Below are positions 2,808-47,784 of a stretch of 64,000 nucleotides of DNA, piece after piece. The notes below the pieces were generated by a model. That model was not told the DNA's origin, ran no database searches, and worked only from the letters and a program-made list of their open reading frames with translations. Origin of the DNA: a virus. Numbering within the stretch: position 1 is the stretch's first letter; every line of letters begins with the position of its first letter. The position numbers and the translations under genes were made by a program. The stretch covers positions 25,474-89,473 of IMG/VR virus record IMGVR_UViG_3300009011_000012; one strand, given 5' to 3'.

Positions 2808-2859
2808 CCAAAACTGCAAAAGCAATGTCCCCAACATTGAAAACTTCATGGAGATCAGA

Positions 2860-4065
2860 ATGAAACGAGATTACGGTGGTGTAGGCTCCATAGCACGCAG
2901 GGCTAGCCATTTGCTTGAGTCAATGAGCAGGGACATTGAAGAGCAGCGCAAAGAGTTTAATTTGACTGAATATTTCCAGACATTTACCCGGAATGCTGTC
3001 GCTAAATTACCGAAACTCAGTCGCAGGATTGTCGAACAGGCCATTAAAGAAATGGAAGATGAGGGCTACGAGTTCAACAAAAAACAGGTTGGGAATGTCG
3101 AACAGTACGCACTGACTATCCAGAACGTCATTGATATTTACGCTCACCGCAAGATTCCTAAGTATCGTGATACCCATACCTCGCCTTACGTTATCTTTGT
3201 TGTGAACCTGAAAGGCGGTGTTTCGAAGACTGTTAGCACCGTTACTCTCGCTCATGCGCTTCGAGTTCACCAGGATCTTCTTCGCCACGATTTGCGCGTT
3301 CTTGTTATTGACCTCGACCCTCAGGCATCGAGCACTATGTTCCTGGATCACACACATAGTATCGGTTCTATACTTGAGACGGCGGCTCAGGCGATGCTAA
3401 ACGACGTTGATACTGAAACGTTGCGTAAGGATGTGATCCGCCCAACCATCATCCCTGGCGTAGATGTTATTCCTGCTTCTATCGATGATGGATTTGTAGC
3501 TAGTGCATGGAAGGAGCTGGTGAACGAGAACCTTCCAGGTGTTAACCAATATGAAGTGCTTCGCAAGGTTATTATCGATCGCGTAGCTGATGATTATGAT
3601 TTCATCCTGATTGATACAGGGCCACACCTCGATCCATTTTTGCTAAACGGCCTGGCTGCGAGTGACCTGATTCTCACCCCTACCCCACCGGCGCAAGTCG
3701 ATTTCCATTCGACGTTAAAATACCTTACCCGCTTGCCTGAAATGCTGGAAACATTGGAACAAGAAGGCATTGAACCGCGATTGTCCGCCAGTATTGGCTT
3801 TATGTCGAAGATGACCGGAAAGCCAGATCACCAAGTTTCACACAGCCTTGCTCGTGAAGTATACACCAGCAATATTCTCGACTCGGCCCTGCCGCGACTA
3901 GATGGTTTTGAACGATGTGGTGAGACGTTTGACACTATTATCAGTGCGAACCCTGCATCATATCCTGGTAGTAACGACGCGCTGAAAAAGGCCCGAACAG
4001 AAGCGGAGCATTTCACTAAGGCTGTGTTTGATCGCATCGAGTTCTTGAGGAGCAAAGCGGCATGA
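2860..4065 (+). CDS. parA: Partition ATPase ParA (P1 type)
   Basis: 401 residues from the ATG at 2860, which has GGAG six bases upstream; an ATG at 2848 lacks a site. The N-terminal ~100 residues form the DNA-binding region typical of large type Ia ParA proteins. A deviant Walker A motif follows (NLKGGVSKTVST), then VIDLDPQASSTMF and the Walker B-like DFILIDTGPHLD. It positions plasmid copies on the nucleoid through ParB-parS and represses its own operon. It is similar to P1 ParA over its whole length. Its stop overlaps the parB start (ATGA), so the two are translationally coupled. Confidence 0.95.
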   Translation: MKRDYGGVGSIARRASHLLESMSRDIEEQRKEFNLTEYFQTFTRNAVAKLPKLSRRIVEQAIKEMEDEGYEFNKKQVGNVEQYALTIQNVIDIYAHRKIPKYRDTHTSPYVIFVVNLKGGVSKTVSTVTLAHALRVHQDLLRHDLRVLVIDLDPQASSTMFLDHTHSIGSILETAAQAMLNDVDTETLRKDVIRPTIIPGVDVIPASIDDGFVASAWKELVNENLPGVNQYEVLRKVIIDRVADDYDFILIDTGPHLDPFLLNGLAASDLILTPTPPAQVDFHSTLKYLTRLPEMLETLEQEGIEPRLSASIGFMSKMTGKPDHQVSHSLAREVYTSNILDSALPRLDGFERCGETFDTIISANPASYPGSNDALKKARTEAEHFTKAVFDRIEFLRSKAA

Positions 4066-5036
4066 AAAAGAAAATAGTAGCTCGCGGGCGAAGCATTTTA
4101 GGCAGTGATAGCTCCGATTTTATCCGTAGCCTTGATAACCAAGGCGGTGAGAAGGTTTTCACGCTTAAGTCTGGAAAGCAGGCTAAGTTCACTCTAAAGA
4201 CCATTGTTAGTGATGAAATAGAGCAGAAAACTTTTGTTGATCCTGCTGTTAATGGTCGCGATCAAAGAAATGTAACTCCCGAGTCAGTGAGCGATATAAC
4301 GCGAACGATCACTCTTCAGCAATTTTTCCCGGCAATTGGTCGGGCTGTAGGTGAGCGCATTGAGGTGTTGGATGGTTCCCGTCGTCGAGCTGCTTGTATT
4401 TTTAGCGGCTCGAAGTTTGAAATCATGGTTACAGAAGATGAAATAAGTCTGGAAGATGCCCGCCAACTGGCAAAAGACATCCAGACCGCCCGTGAACATA
4501 CACTTCGTGAAATTGGGCAGAGATACCAGCTCATGCACGAGAATGGCATGACAAAGGATGAGATCGCGCGCGCTGAGGGAGTTTCCCCTGCAAGCGTTAC
4601 CCGCGCGTTCCAAGCCGCTTCGGTACCAGCTGAGATGGTTGCGCTATTCCCGGTCATCAATGAACTTGCTCTTGCTGATTACCAACTGCTGCTTAAGCTT
4701 TCAGAAGAGCTAAACAACAAAGGTGTTCCCCTGCCAGAATTACTTGCAAAAGTGCAAGAAGACATAAGTGCAGCGGAAGTGGAGAGCGTAACTAAGTCGT
4801 TAATCCTGGACTCGTTCAAACGTCACACAAAGCAGTTGAACCCGCGACCAGTGAAAACAGTCCAAACTGAAAAGCTGCGTGAGTTCGAAGATAAAAAACA
4901 GTTTGCACGTAAGAAAACTGATACGTCTAAACGCTTAGTGACCTATGAATTTGCTCGACTCCCAGCGTCAGTTCAAGCTGAGTTGGATAAAGCCATTAAG
5001 CAGGTAATGGATAACATGCAGGCACCTGCGAAGTAA
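4062..5036 (+). CDS. parB: Centromere-binding protein ParB (P1 type)
   Basis: 324 residues, close to P1 ParB (333). The central part holds a helix-turn-helix (MTKDEIARAEGVSPASVTRAF), followed by the linker and C-terminal dimer domain that in P1 reads the parS A-boxes and B-boxes respectively. ParB binds parS, spreads along DNA and stimulates ParA ATPase. It overlaps parA by four bases. The candidate parS lies directly downstream, as in P1. Confidence 0.93.
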   Translation: MKKKIVARGRSILGSDSSDFIRSLDNQGGEKVFTLKSGKQAKFTLKTIVSDEIEQKTFVDPAVNGRDQRNVTPESVSDITRTITLQQFFPAIGRAVGERIEVLDGSRRRAACIFSGSKFEIMVTEDEISLEDARQLAKDIQTAREHTLREIGQRYQLMHENGMTKDEIARAEGVSPASVTRAFQAASVPAEMVALFPVINELALADYQLLLKLSEELNNKGVPLPELLAKVQEDISAAEVESVTKSLILDSFKRHTKQLNPRPVKTVQTEKLREFEDKKQFARKKTDTSKRLVTYEFARLPASVQAELDKAIKQVMDNMQAPAK

Positions 5037-15029: not shown

Positions 15030-15120
15030 AAGATAAATTCTCTTTTCGTTCTCAAAACAATCTCAATTCAGTCTCTTGTTAAGTGCCATTTCACTTGTTA
15101 TTCTCTCTTCGTTCTCAGTT
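15030..15120 (+). other. parC: Candidate parC centromere and promoter of parMR
   Basis: A direct repeat ATTCTCT(T/C)TTCGTTCTCA occurs at 15037-15054 and 15100-15117, with further TCTC words between (ATCTCAATTCAGTCTC). R1 parC has two sets of short direct repeats flanking the parM promoter, to which ParR binds. The 45 bp between the two copies here could hold that promoter. Confidence 0.65.
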
Positions 15121-15163
15121 ATGTATCTTTATAAACTCTTATGTGTCTCAGAAGTGGAGCAAT

Positions 15164-16123
15164 ATGATGCGCATTTTTATCGACGATGGTTCAACTAATA
15201 TCAAAATGTTGTGGGAAGAGGGTGGTAAGACCTTCACTCACATCAGCCCTAACAGCTTCAAGCGAGGATGGTCGGCAACGTTCGGTTCAGGAAAACCGTT
15301 CAACTATTTAGTTGATGGGGAGAAGTATTCCTTTGATCTGATTACGCCGGACGTTCTGCCTACAAACAATGTTGAATGGCAGTACAGCCCGTTAAATGCC
15401 CTGGCCATACACCACGCACTACAGACAAGCGGCATAGAGCCACAAGATGTAGAGGTTATTGTTACCTTGCCACTGGCTGAGTATTACGACGAGGATGCTC
15501 AGTACCGCCTGGATAACATTGAGCGTAAAAAGAAGAGTGTCATGCGCTCTGTGGAACTGAATAAGGGGAGCGGCTTCAACATCACCAAAGTTAAGGTGCT
15601 CCCGGAGTCTATTCCTGCTGGCGTTAGCCTCTGCGCGGATCTCAAACCGTCTCATTCAGCTTTGATCGTAGACTTGGGAGGGACCACGCTCGATGTCTCG
15701 ATGGTGGCCGGTCAAATGACTTCAGTATCCCGCGTCTATGGCGACTCACGGCTAGGAGTATCATTAGTAACTGATGCCGTTAAACTGGCCCTGGCTAAGG
15801 CGGAAACAGCAACGTCCAGCTACAACGTAGACCAGATCATTATTAACCGTAATGACGCGGAATTTTTGGCCGAAAACATTAACGACCCTGCAGCCATTGA
15901 TTTTGTCAAAAAAGAGATCACGTCCAGCATCGAGCGTCTTTGCAAACGCGTGAATGATGTTATTAGCAGTTTCAAAGGGTATTCTCATGTTATTGTAATT
16001 GGAGGTGGCGCACCGCTAGTGGCTGACTCTATCCGTGATCATGTTGCTATCCGTGATGATCGCTTTTTTGTGGCCGACGAACCTCAATTTGCTCTCGTTC
16101 GTGGCCTTAAACTACTCGGTTAA
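15164..16123 (+). CDS. parM: Actin-like plasmid segregation protein ParM
   Basis: 319 residues from the ATG at 15164 (GTGGAG upstream; the next codon is also ATG). It closely resembles R1 ParM/StbA: IFIDDGSTNIK (phosphate 1), VTLPLAEYYD, VLPESIPAGVS, LIVDLGGTTLDVS (phosphate 2), YGDSRLGVSLV and VIVIGGGAPLV (adenosine motif). It polymerises into filaments that push ParR-parC complexes apart. Unlike ParA it needs no nucleoid. It is a second partition module on the same replicon. Confidence 0.93.
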   Translation: MMRIFIDDGSTNIKMLWEEGGKTFTHISPNSFKRGWSATFGSGKPFNYLVDGEKYSFDLITPDVLPTNNVEWQYSPLNALAIHHALQTSGIEPQDVEVIVTLPLAEYYDEDAQYRLDNIERKKKSVMRSVELNKGSGFNITKVKVLPESIPAGVSLCADLKPSHSALIVDLGGTTLDVSMVAGQMTSVSRVYGDSRLGVSLVTDAVKLALAKAETATSSYNVDQIIINRNDAEFLAENINDPAAIDFVKKEITSSIERLCKRVNDVISSFKGYSHVIVIGGGAPLVADSIRDHVAIRDDRFFVADEPQFALVRGLKLLG

Positions 16124-41898: not shown

Positions 41899-42927
41899 TT
41901 AGGAATCCATTAACTTGCTGTTTGCACTAACAGTCTTTGAAGATTTTCTTAAATAACGCATTAGAGTTTCCGGTTTACTCCAGGTGCCTTCGCGCATTAT
42001 TTCGACGATAGAAACTTGTTTATCTGCCATATCCATTGCAGCACCGACACGTGCACTATGTCCGGTCCAGGTCCTATAACGACCTTTATTTGCCGCTACG
42101 TCACGCTTGCCCGCAAGTTGCCATGCGTCACTAAATATTTTTTCAAGCGCCGGTGCCGTCAAAGGCTTATCTGTTACTTTTGCCTTATTAGAGCGATGCA
42201 CCGGCGGAAAGAGAACGGCATTGGGATGTTCGGTCAACCCAGAGGCTTTGAGCCAGTCTTCAAGAACGGACGTGGTACAGCGGGCCAAGCGCTTCTCTAT
42301 GCCTGCAGCCGTAACACTCGTTTTGGTGTGGCCCACATGAACCGTTACAGTGTCACCTATCATTTCTAAATCACGCACCCGAATACGGGCCATTTCACTC
42401 ATTCGCAGCAGTGAGTTATATGCTACGTAAAGAAAAGCTCGGTTGCGGAGGTCTACCAGCCGACCGGAACGGGAAAGTAAAACATCAAGCAGCCTGAGGT
42501 CATCCCAATGCAACGGTACCGCCTGGCCGGTTTGCTCATTGTTTTCCGTTACTGCTTCACGCCTGATCCTCCTCATCAGAAGTGATACGCTTTTGCTGGT
42601 GGCCAGAGACGGCTGGCCACACTGTGCAAGAAACATGTTGAGCATGGCGTAATGTTTGTCCGTTGTGGTCGAGGCGCGGCCGGAATTATAGAGCTGCAGT
42701 AGATATTCCCTCACAGCTTCAGGATCTATCGGGTACCAAGTCAACCCGCGCGCAGAGCACCAGCGCACCCATGCTTCAAAGACCAGGCGCAGATCGCGAA
42801 GCGTGTTCTTTGAGTAAGCTCCTTGGTCGCGCAGAAAATGAAGGAGATTTTGCGCTGCCTCTTTGTGCTGACTACCGACATTTCGAAGGAAGCCAGCGTT
42901 ATCACTTTTTAGGATTAGATCACTCAT
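41899..42927 (-). CDS. dre: Dre-type tyrosine recombinase
   Basis: 342 residues, the length of D6 Dre, and closely similar to my memory of it throughout, for example STTTDKHYAMLNM, SVSLLMRRIRREA, LRNRAFLYVAYNSLLRMSEM and RYRTWTGHSARVGAAMDMAD. Catalytic residues visible: Arg in SLLRMSEM, His/Arg in GHSARVG, Trp in EGTWSKPETLMRYLR and the nucleophile Tyr in LMRYLR. It resolves plasmid dimers and can circularise packaged DNA at the nearby rox site. P1 Cre is a more distant relative. Confidence 0.93.
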   Translation of the reverse strand: MSDLILKSDNAGFLRNVGSQHKEAAQNLLHFLRDQGAYSKNTLRDLRLVFEAWVRWCSARGLTWYPIDPEAVREYLLQLYNSGRASTTTDKHYAMLNMFLAQCGQPSLATSKSVSLLMRRIRREAVTENNEQTGQAVPLHWDDLRLLDVLLSRSGRLVDLRNRAFLYVAYNSLLRMSEMARIRVRDLEMIGDTVTVHVGHTKTSVTAAGIEKRLARCTTSVLEDWLKASGLTEHPNAVLFPPVHRSNKAKVTDKPLTAPALEKIFSDAWQLAGKRDVAANKGRYRTWTGHSARVGAAMDMADKQVSIVEIMREGTWSKPETLMRYLRKSSKTVSANSKLMDS

Positions 42928-43080
42928 GAAACTATTACCTTTCTATATACTGGTGACGCTACGTGAAAAATAGAAAAATGACAGGGTAGTTATAAGTAAT
43001 TATAAAAATTGTAACGCCTCGTCTTTGAAGCGATTTCTGTCACGCGCATCAGGTTTGCTCATTTCCTCTACATTATAACC

Positions 43081-43112
43081 TAACTTTAAATAATGCTAAT
43101 TATTTAAAGTTA
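43081..43112 (+). other. rox: rox-like recombination site
   Basis: Two perfect 14-bp inverted arms, TAACTTTAAATAAT and its complement, flank a 4-bp spacer GCTA. The arms equal those of D6 rox as I recall it; the rox spacer is GCCA, so one base differs. The site is 154 bp upstream of the dre start, matching the loxP-cre layout. CC and GG outside extend the symmetry. Confidence 0.9.
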
Positions 43113-43332: not shown

Positions 43333-44397
43333 ATGAAGAAAACTGCACTTGAAAAGGAATACCGAAATTTCATCGCCGTTGCTGAGCGCTGGCGGGCTAT
43401 TTTGGCGGAGCATGAAGTGTTCCATGACACCAATGGTAATGGTGATGCCTTCCGTTTCATTGCTGTGACCTCAGACGGTGCGGTTCTGGACGAAGCGAGA
43501 GAGTGTTTACGGAAATGGCAGGAGTTTGCTGACTTATGCCTGGCAGAAGAGGGCGCAGCAACGCTTGCCATCCCTGAACCAACTTTCCTACCAGTACCAT
43601 TTATTGTCGAGGATACAGCACAGGCCACCCAGATTTATCATCGCCGTGCGACGCCTTCTACTACACTTACGCGCGAGCAGATCCTGAAAAAGTACGATTC
43701 CATTATCAAAAAAGGACGTGCTTCTCCGGTGCTGGCACCAGTGATTCGCCCTATGCTTGCCGAGAGAAAAATCTTTGAAAATGAACCTGCTGGTTCAAAG
43801 TTTCGCGTTAGAAAAACTTCCTTTACCGAGGCGGTAATCGGCACTGCGAAATCTAAAGGTGGAGCTCTTACTCGTTACCGTGTCGGCTCCCACGGGGCGC
43901 TGATTTTTGCACAAATACCGGGCTTACACGTACCAGTAGTTGATCAATCGGAACGCCGTAGCGCAACAATGTACGATGATGTGTTGCCTGTACCATGCGC
44001 CCCGCTTGGTGAGTACAAGTTATACCGAGTCAGTGATCTCGATATGGCACAGCGCACCAGCATGACCAGATCGTACATTCAGAAGTGCATTGAGGCCCGC
44101 ACAGCTAAATTTTCTAAGCTGGAAGCCGAGCGTCTGCGCGATGCACCACCAGCGCTTAGACCTGTCATGGTGGCAAAGTTCAAGAATGCCCGCGTGATGC
44201 TTGAAAAGGTGAACACTATGGACGCTGAATTGATTGATGCCATTGCGGCCGCCGGTGATGATATTGGAAAAATCAAACTCCGCAGCGCCCGTGCCCTGTA
44301 TGGAAAAGAGATAGAGGCGCGTCATGGCATCTCTTTCGAGAAGGCACAAGGCGAAGCGAAGGTTTACACCCCTCGCGCGGCCAAACTTAAAAAATAA
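43333..44397 (+). CDS. Hypothetical protein under operator control
   Basis: 354 residues. A helical N-terminal ~90 residues, then basic segments (REQILKKYDSIIKKGRASPV, FRVRKTSFTEAVIG) and a helical C-terminus (KIKLRSARALYGKEIEARHG). Flanked upstream by two dispersed operators. It lies between dre and the packaging genes. I do not recognise it; a nucleic-acid-binding protein is suggested by its charge. Confidence 0.45.
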   Translation: MKKTALEKEYRNFIAVAERWRAILAEHEVFHDTNGNGDAFRFIAVTSDGAVLDEARECLRKWQEFADLCLAEEGAATLAIPEPTFLPVPFIVEDTAQATQIYHRRATPSTTLTREQILKKYDSIIKKGRASPVLAPVIRPMLAERKIFENEPAGSKFRVRKTSFTEAVIGTAKSKGGALTRYRVGSHGALIFAQIPGLHVPVVDQSERRSATMYDDVLPVPCAPLGEYKLYRVSDLDMAQRTSMTRSYIQKCIEARTAKFSKLEAERLRDAPPALRPVMVAKFKNARVMLEKVNTMDAELIDAIAAAGDDIGKIKLRSARALYGKEIEARHGISFEKAQGEAKVYTPRAAKLKK

Positions 44398-44899: not shown

Positions 44900-46408
44900 T
44901 TACAAATCCAGGTCTACCACATCCATACTGGATAGCGCTTCCTCCCTGAATGCTTCCATCTCTCCCCCAACATCTTCATCTGCAGGCACGTAATCCACGA
45001 TAAAGGTGAAGCAGTAAGTGTCCCAGCGATCGGGGGATTTGATATTTAGCTTTTGGCGCATGTGCTCCTTACGCATCATCACAAGACGCCCTTCCTCGTT
45101 CATCATGTATGGGATTTTTGAGGCTTGCTCAGCTGTTTTCGGACTCGCGTCAATGCGCATTCTGCCTGACTTAATCGCGTCACGGGCCATAATATTCGCG
45201 TAGGCACGCTGGTTTACGAAGCGATCCTTATCTTTCTGCGCAAACATAGGCTTACCCCAGCGTATGCGCACAGGATTAGCGCCGCGGCGAACCAACTGGG
45301 CACACGTATCCGAACCGAAGCCGTCAGCATCTACGGCAATAGTTATGTTCGGGTATTTATCCGGTGTGCACTCATTGAAAATGAAGTCCCCAAATGCCAG
45401 CGGGTCCATAGTACCTGGCATCTCCAGTATCTTGAAGCTAACGACACGTCGTTTCTCCCGATGCCCGGATACCTTCTGTATGTTGAGGACAGATTTATCG
45501 CGTCCATTGCCGACGTCGGCGGTCGCCACCCATCCCCAACCTTTTTCCAGCAGAACGCGTCGGCGAGCAGCTCGATCGCACTCATCACGTCCCAGCAGAT
45601 AACCAGCAATCTCGCGCGGGAACTGACCCAATACCTTGACCATGTATTCGAGAGAGTCACGCCCGCCGTACTCCAACAGCTTTTGCTTGATGAACTGTGT
45701 GGTAACGAAGGGAGATTCTTCGGAATTGAGGACAATGGATGTCCATATACCGTTTGGATTATCCGGGTTTTTTGCGAGGGTATGGTGTGAATCGTAAAAG
45801 TAACCGCTTGGACGTGTCGGCTGGGACAGCATCAGCATGCGGTTATCGAGCTCTGTCAGTGCACCGGTCATTACCCCGATCGCTTTGTCGGAGATACCAG
45901 AGGCTTCATCGAGAATTAGTAACAAGTGCGCTGCGTGCTCACCTGCCAGCGCTTCTTCGTTACCGAGGCGGTAGCCCTTGCAGAGAACTTCCCAGATACC
46001 TTTGCGCGAGCGCTCATAGAACATGGTATCCGACAAAACAAAGTAGTTTTGTAGCCATCCGTGACGTTTAATGGCATTGGCCCAATACGTTTTCACGTAC
46101 TTGAATACGCCAGTTTTAACCTGTGCGATTTTGTTGGCCACGATAACCACACGGGCATCGGGGTACAGAATCATATAGATCAGTAGTAGCATAGCCGTAA
46201 GCGACGACTTACCCGTACCATGCCCGGATGTTACCGTTGTTCGGCTGCCGACGCCCTGAACGGATTCAATGATTTCCTGCTGCTGGGGTGATGGCATCAT
46301 CCCGAAGAGCTCTACAACGGCGCGGGCATAGTCATAGCGGTACTTAACCGCCATATCGCGCCAGCGAGGGTCGGTAGTGACACACTTAAGCTTCCTTGCG
46401 CCGGACAT
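44900..46408 (-). CDS. pacB: Large terminase / headful packaging ATPase PacB
   Basis: 502 residues (P1 PacB 494). Walker A-type TSGHGTGKSSLTAMLLLIYM, Walker B LLILDEASGIS, and a C-terminal nuclease fold with Asp residues (VATADVGNGRDKSVLNIQ; IAVDADGFGSD). It drives DNA into proheads by headful packaging. It overlaps pacA (TAATG) as in P1 and the start resembles P1 PacB. Confidence 0.93.
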   Translation of the reverse strand: MSGARKLKCVTTDPRWRDMAVKYRYDYARAVVELFGMMPSPQQQEIIESVQGVGSRTTVTSGHGTGKSSLTAMLLLIYMILYPDARVVIVANKIAQVKTGVFKYVKTYWANAIKRHGWLQNYFVLSDTMFYERSRKGIWEVLCKGYRLGNEEALAGEHAAHLLLILDEASGISDKAIGVMTGALTELDNRMLMLSQPTRPSGYFYDSHHTLAKNPDNPNGIWTSIVLNSEESPFVTTQFIKQKLLEYGGRDSLEYMVKVLGQFPREIAGYLLGRDECDRAARRRVLLEKGWGWVATADVGNGRDKSVLNIQKVSGHREKRRVVSFKILEMPGTMDPLAFGDFIFNECTPDKYPNITIAVDADGFGSDTCAQLVRRGANPVRIRWGKPMFAQKDKDRFVNQRAYANIMARDAIKSGRMRIDASPKTAEQASKIPYMMNEEGRLVMMRKEHMRQKLNIKSPDRWDTYCFTFIVDYVPADEDVGGEMEAFREEALSSMDVVDLDL

Positions 46409-47784
46409 TAAACCTCCTCCGGCGGGTCAATCGCTATCTCTTCATCATCGTCATACGCATCATTTGGAACATCATAAATGTCGCTGGTGGCTGACGGGTC
46501 CAGATCCAAATCTTCATCACCGGCGTCAAACTCACCGGCCTTGCGATCGCCGGTGGCATCGATATCACCACAACCTAACTCTTCAACCACTTTCGCCACT
46601 TCAGCACGGCGGTTGGCTAGCCATTCTGGGTGCTCTCTCTGCTGCTGATGATATGCCTGTGCGTCTTTTTCAAGCTGCTCTTCATCTACAGTGTTATCGG
46701 CAACTGGTGGTTCAATAGCGGCAATAGCTCGTAAAGCCTGGGCGGCCAACATTGCCGGAACGGATACGCCTTGACGCTCAATATATTCAGCGACACCAAT
46801 ATCATCCAGTTCCTCGCGCTCACGCATACGTAGAGCTGTGGCGATGACGCGAGCCGCGCGTGCGTCTGCCCCTATGCGGTGCTCTAAGTCCCTGCGCTTC
46901 ATCTCCATCTGCTCACGAGCTAGCCCCAGCTTCTCTTGAGCTTCTGCCTCTTTGAATTGCTGTTGCCGCGCAGCCTGCCTGAGCTTCTCTGCACCCTGCT
47001 GTAGCTTACTTTCGCCCTGATAGATGGCGGCCAGGCGACTGGTGAAGTCATTCATGAAGTAAGCGGAATCTTCTAACAACCCACGCAACTTAATTGAGGG
47101 ATGCACGCCCTCTATCTCATCACCAGGTTGAATATCATCTATTTCCTCCTGAAGCCTCGCTGCCTCCTGATCAACCGCTGCCCGGTATCGAAGCGCTGAC
47201 TCGTTAGCCATCTCAATGACAAGGCGCAGATGGTGCTCTGGCCCCTGTTCGAGCATCTTTTTGGTAGCTTCGCTGGAAGGTAATGCAACGACGTTAGAAC
47301 CAAGCAAGGGGATCATTTGCCCCTTTGTTGCTTTCGCCGTTTTCTTGATCCCTTTTTTAGCTACCTTTTCGGGGATCATTTGCGGATCATTGGCATCGAA
47401 TGATCCGGCTCTTCCATTGTCTATCCTATTGTTTTTATTGGATTGTAACTTGGAATCAGATGTGCGCTTTTTTGGGGTTGCACGGAATGATTTATCACCC
47501 GCCAATTTGTCAGTTTTTGTAAGTTTTGAGTTATTATTAGCCGTATTTTGTTTGTTATTTGCTCTTGGATGGCGTGTTTTTTTAACCGTTTTCCCGGAAT
47601 GATCCCCTAAATGATCCCCTGCCTGATCAGCATTCATTGCCGAGTTCTTTTTCAGGTTCAGGTGTTTTCTGGCCGTGTTGAAACTCAGGCCGTTTTGCTC
47701 GCTGTACTCTTTGATAGTAATTCCGGTGTCCGCACGTTGCGCCGCGAACCTTTCACGGTGCTCATCCCAGCTAATGCCGCTCAT
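46408..47784 (-). CDS. pacA: Small terminase / pac recognition protein PacA
   Basis: 458 residues (P1 PacA 448). N-terminal helix-turn-helix (ISWDEHRERFAAQRADTGIT; IKEYSEQNGLSFNTARKHL), then a Lys/Asn-rich linker, a long coiled coil (EKLGLAREQMEMKRRDLEHR) and an acidic tail. PacA binds hexamers in pac and, with PacB, cuts there. The pac site lies within this gene's own linker-coding region, as in P1. Start overlaps the lpa stop. Confidence 0.9.
   Translation of the reverse strand: MSGISWDEHRERFAAQRADTGITIKEYSEQNGLSFNTARKHLNLKKNSAMNADQAGDHLGDHSGKTVKKTRHPRANNKQNTANNNSKLTKTDKLAGDKSFRATPKKRTSDSKLQSNKNNRIDNGRAGSFDANDPQMIPEKVAKKGIKKTAKATKGQMIPLLGSNVVALPSSEATKKMLEQGPEHHLRLVIEMANESALRYRAAVDQEAARLQEEIDDIQPGDEIEGVHPSIKLRGLLEDSAYFMNDFTSRLAAIYQGESKLQQGAEKLRQAARQQQFKEAEAQEKLGLAREQMEMKRRDLEHRIGADARAARVIATALRMREREELDDIGVAEYIERQGVSVPAMLAAQALRAIAAIEPPVADNTVDEEQLEKDAQAYHQQQREHPEWLANRRAEVAKVVEELGCGDIDATGDRKAGEFDAGDEDLDLDPSATSDIYDVPNDAYDDDEEIAIDPPEEV
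47310..47629. other. pac: pac site within pacA
   Basis: Hexamers TGATCC/TGATCA (either strand) cluster at 47310, 47346, 47373, 47384 and 47401 on the left, and at 47600, 47612 and 47624 on the right. An AT-rich segment of about 190 bp separates the clusters. P1 pac has four plus three TGATC(A/G) hexamers around an IHF site and the cut region. All carry GATC, so cleavage should depend on Dam methylation, here possibly from the phage Dmt. Confidence 0.8.

Follow-up and report, generated by a model that had tools for sequence, protein, structure and literature searches.

The rox–dre locus and its element

The window, that is the whole stretch of 64 kb analysed here, carries a gene for a Dre-like tyrosine recombinase, a rox site located upstream of this gene, and genes of phage packaging and plasmid partition. 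The features on which the analysis is based are listed below, with the supporting evidence in brackets.

2848..5036, + strand: ParA/ParB plasmid partition genes of the P1 type (Pfam HTH_54 4.6e-37, AAA_31, ParB 1.4e-29)
41899..42927, - strand: dre homologue, tyrosine recombinase of 342 aa (70% identity to D6 Dre; Pfam; matches to Cre structures)
42928..43080, - strand: 153-bp leader, in which a conserved CACGTAGCG element precedes the dre start by about 40 bp (locus comparison)
43072..43099, - strand: putative sigma70-type dre promoter (-35 TTAGCA at 43099-43094; -10 TATAAT at 43077-43072; 16-bp spacing)
43081..43112, - strand: rox site (14-bp arms equal to those of D6 rox; centre GCTA on the + strand; putative 6-bp crossover region TTAGCA on the dre strand)
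43333..44397, + strand: C1-like phage repressor homologue (phrog_1678, 1.2e-83; same neighbour in D6)
44900..46408, - strand: PacB-like terminase large subunit (phrog_2 terminase, 2.9e-37; position as pacB in D6)
46408..47784, - strand: PacA-like terminase (phrog_1711 terminase, 4.5e-103)

The counterpart of the C1-like gene is annotated as 'phage repressor protein' in CP074151 and as c1 in D6, and the order c1-rox-dre-pac in the window is the same as in D6. In addition, the window encodes an Lpa-like activator, a PmgS-like head protein and a replication protein. Packaging genes and plasmid partition genes on one element are what defines P1/D6-like phage-plasmids and, judged by its gene content, the element is one of these, of the Enterobacter type. 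An actin-like ParM is also encoded, at 15083-16123 (Pfam StbA_N, 2e-67), and the same element consequently bears two different partition systems, the P1-type ParA/ParB and ParM.

The assignment of the recombinase to the Dre family, proposed in the earlier note, is borne out by its alignment with D6 Dre, which is also 342 aa long: 240/342 residues are identical over the full length, with no gaps. At the DNA level, the identity of the dre gene to D6 dre is 65%. The protein gives Pfam matches to Phage_integrase (4.5e-19) and Phage_int_SAM_1, matches the Cre structures with an E value of 1e-67, and retains all the catalytic residues identified by alignment to Cre (R175, K202, H290, R293, W316 and Y325). 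Specifically, we compared 39 DNA-facing or active-site positions, which we take to be those of the Cre-loxP structures, and found D6 Dre and window Dre to agree at 36 of them, the exceptions corresponding to Cre positions 204, 235 and 316. Against the background of 70% identity, such an agreement has a P of about 0.001, a value to which conservation for other reasons also contributes. Cre residues K43, R259 and G263 have been tied to the choice between lox and rox (PMC4957104); the corresponding residues are R, P and K, respectively, in D6 Dre and window Dre alike.

The rox site, TAACTTTAAATAAT-GCTA-ATTATTTAAAGTTA, is 32 bp long and shows no arm mismatch to D6 rox (28/28 arm bases), confirming the previous description of a site with intact arms and a GCTA centre in place of the D6-typical GCCA. 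The centre of D6 rox is indeed GCCA in AY753669, and the GCTA of the window is therefore not the D6 centre itself. With its arms intact, the site would very likely be bound by Dre-type enzymes, as the earlier note had anticipated. This is the sole rox match in the 64-kb window, with no match over 100 shuffles, and the parent record (89,473 bp) contains no second rox, even when three mismatches are permitted.

The locus thus resembles that of D6 (AY753669, MF356679) in the arms, the length of the enzyme, the c1 and pac neighbours and the distance between rox and dre (153 bp in the window, 152 bp in D6), while it differs in the centre, in the DNA sequence of dre and in its occurrence on Enterobacter-type plasmids. 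The same pair of GCTA site and Dre is carried by two Enterobacter plasmids, circular and of 88 and 91 kb, which share the dre region with the window; both encode the same Dre protein, with six residues different from window Dre.

Natural variation of the rox centre

Scans of viral contigs and plasmids revealed at least five natural rox centres. Among plasmid records, counted as sampled and hence including clonal duplicates, GCCA occurs in 110, ACTA in 33, CTCCAA in 6 and GCTA in 2, whereas the CCCC centre was found in a single viral contig (L009, 12405-12436; the same contig as L040). The ACTA, CTCCAA and CCCC sites share with the window site the rox arms and the position beside a Dre gene, and differ from it in the central bases; in the CTCCAA core, the innermost arm base is altered too. 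Of all the natural centres, GCTA departs least from D6, with one base of eight changed. Since natural rox centres vary, GCCA is a mark of the D6 allele and not of the rox family.

Rox sites with one changed arm base were also found. The ACTA sites, which read TTAGTA on the dre strand, were seen in L140 and L141, in L142 with altered arms, and in the 33 PLSDB records; their carriers are mostly Salmonella and E. coli plasmids. The CCCC site adjoins a Dre protein 99% identical to D6-type Dre and differs from GCCA at two of the four central bases. More distant Dre relatives (41-57% identity) have different arms, with cores such as TGTCAG, TGGGAC, TAACAG and TTGACC. Another Dre relative, on plasmid pPAT9B04 of Pantoea sp. 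At-9b (L137), has a perfectly palindromic TAACTTTACATAA-type site with the core TGCCAA, and its locus adjoins a gene annotated as a Hint-domain homing endonuclease.

A protein-based scan of genome contigs, carried out with a two-sequence Dre alignment, returned 102 candidate stretches and no confirmed relative, and a scan for lox-like patterns was used in its place. Many lox-like matches in the genome contigs have no Dre relative alongside; these are probably AT-rich palindromes that arose by chance, or sites that belong to unrelated systems.

Co-variation of centre and enzyme was considered and rejected, as the same Dre protein is found with different centres. Loci L023 and L139 encode identical Dre proteins, yet carry TTGGCA and TTGGAG, respectively, and Dre proteins 99% identical to each other sit beside TTAGTA in one case and TGGGGA in the other. 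The centre can therefore change without a change of the enzyme, and the suggestion that the GCTA site has its own matching enzyme is left without a basis, all the more so given the 36 of 39 DNA-facing positions shared with D6 Dre.

Predicted compatibility of the GCTA centre with D6 rox

It had been proposed that the GCTA site recombines poorly, or not at all, with D6 rox. According to this view, the site would be a natural orthogonal rox, with arms bound by any Dre and a centre blocking exchange with the D6 site. Such a block would be in keeping with the need of tyrosine recombinases, in general, for homology in the overlap region. An experimental case for it is provided by Panto, a natural Dre relative whose pox site has near-rox arms and another spacer: each of the two enzymes, Panto and Dre, acts on both rox and pox, but no cross-recombination between rox and pox was detected in a plasmid-integration assay, a failure put down to spacer mismatch (PMC4957104). 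This failure indicates that Dre-type enzymes are sensitive to spacer identity once the spacers are more diverged. However, Dre and Panto share 52% identity, and the pox spacer has four of eight bases in common with rox, while the window spacer has seven of eight.

Published data on engineered sites, which share with the window site the rox arms and altered core bases (the rox4R library and rox7-rox85; PMC4777119, PMC12331466), argue against a block at this smaller distance. When a rox4R library with an NNNN centre was recombined with wild-type roxP by D6 Dre, recombination was about 0.9 and comparable to the control (PMC4777119), a pooled figure obtained with Dre expressed from a plasmid. Because the value is pooled, GCTA could belong to a minority of rox4R centres that fail. 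In the same study, recombination decreased to about 0.3 and 0.1 with libraries also changed at positions 2 and 7, and the incompatible rox clones that were retested carried changes at these two positions, outside the central 4 bp (PMC4777119). In contrast, the window core is altered at position 5 only, and is identical to D6 rox at positions 2 and 7.

A similar indication comes from pairs of individual sites. Specifically, rox7-rox12, rox7-rox61 and rox12-rox85 differ by a single central base and recombine efficiently, and a one-sided rule has been formulated, according to which recombination takes place when two 8-bp cores have the four bases on one side in common (PMC12331466). As ATGCTAAT and ATGCCAAT have ATGC in common, the rule predicts recombination between GCTA and GCCA. 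Taken alone, the same rule would let through only 31 of the 256 centres; it differs from the rox4R result on stringency, and the two agree in direction for the pair of GCTA and GCCA.

All together, the claim of poor recombination with D6 rox is unsupported: on the published Dre data, the GCTA site should stay compatible with D6 rox, fully or largely. Those data, along with the uncoupling of centre and enzyme described above, make an orthogonal rox very improbable, and orthogonality is mostly contradicted by them; the window pair is an ordinary member of the Dre/rox family rather than a new orthogonal system. The one-sided rule is not satisfied by ACTA or CCCC against D6 rox, and these two centres are predicted, from their bases, to be better candidates than GCTA for natural incompatibility; should a natural incompatible rox be wanted, they are the sites to look at.

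Probable function of the module and a putative promoter within rox

We consider it very probable that the locus is an ordinary Dre/rox recombination module of a D6/P1-like Enterobacter phage-plasmid, with a nearly neutral, D6-compatible GCTA centre. Arms kept at 28/28 bases next to a dre gene of only 65% DNA identity support a functional module. By analogy, its function is most likely the normal resolution of multimers and circularisation. In phage P1, Cre/lox resolves plasmid dimers and circularises incoming DNA, and the presence of one rox per element fits the same role. In the proposed mechanism, a Dre dimer would bind to the two conserved 14-bp arms, and two copies of rox would be brought together, supplied either by a dimeric plasmid or, once a cell has been infected, by the two ends of the terminally redundant phage DNA. 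Synapsis and strand exchange over the 6-bp region TTAGCA, whose cleavage positions are putative, would then yield monomers or circular DNA. As natural partners carry the same site, the centre would be free to drift, and GCTA would represent a nearly neutral single-base variant. Cre/loxP is comparable in that it is a phage-plasmid recombinase system located by c1 and pac, with the same catalytic residues and site layout, whereas its arms are different and the protein identity is about 40% (130/324 aligned residues); no cross-reaction between Dre and Cre was seen in one study (PMC4777119).

The window rox might, on the other hand, be a decaying copy devoid of function, a reading that would account for a centre unlike that of the type site and for the single copy per element. 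It is highly improbable in view of the perfect symmetric arms beside a gene so diverged at the DNA level, of the intact catalytic residues and of the occurrence of the same pair in two more Enterobacter plasmids.

A different constraint on the centre, compatible with an ordinary Dre/rox module and not exclusive of it, may derive from transcription. Read on the dre strand, the hexamer of the crossover region (TTAGCA in the window, TTGGCA in D6) coincides with the -35 position of the putative dre promoter, and TATAAT, or the near-variants TGTAAT and TATGAT, follows 16 bp past the hexamer at a constant distance across D6-type loci including the window, although the surrounding bases vary. The conservation of this arrangement suggests a location of the dre promoter within rox, in which case Dre may repress its own gene. 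In a promoter consensus scan the window scored 10/12, and the commonest centre, TTGGCA, gives the best -35 match (5/6), the other centres matching at three to four of six bases. Against a promoter, about 1.6 chance matches are expected per 441-bp region, the region scanned, and TATAAT is missing from the leaders of the more distant Dre homologues. We therefore advance only tentatively the view that the centre is under constraint because it serves as the -35 element of dre, with variants tuning dre expression and Dre repressing itself, so that the variation would be regulatory and not a matter of partner choice. A joint reading, equally speculative, is that the crossover region is the dre -35 element and is rebuilt at each recombination event, that Dre is autorepressed, and that the centres set both expression and partner choice, with ACTA and CCCC sites not recombining with D6 rox.

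Dre/rox is a working tool of genome engineering, and natural centres with perfect arms beside near-identical enzymes amount to a free experiment on the variation that a centre permits; the natural set shows the centre changing independently of the enzyme. In addition, window Dre, diverged and intact-looking and associated with the same arms, could be useful to map the residues responsible for arm specificity.

As regards the leader between rox and dre, a CACGTAGCG-like element lies about 30-60 bp 5' of the dre start (42928-42980, - strand, in the window; also L074, L089, L117 and L119). In the relatives from Rahnella and Pantoea, this element is one of the two arms of an inverted repeat that encloses a second GC-rich repeat, and the leader repeat of these relatives had no match in Rfam. 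A CACGTAGCG-like element is retained even in Dre homologues of 43-46% identity.
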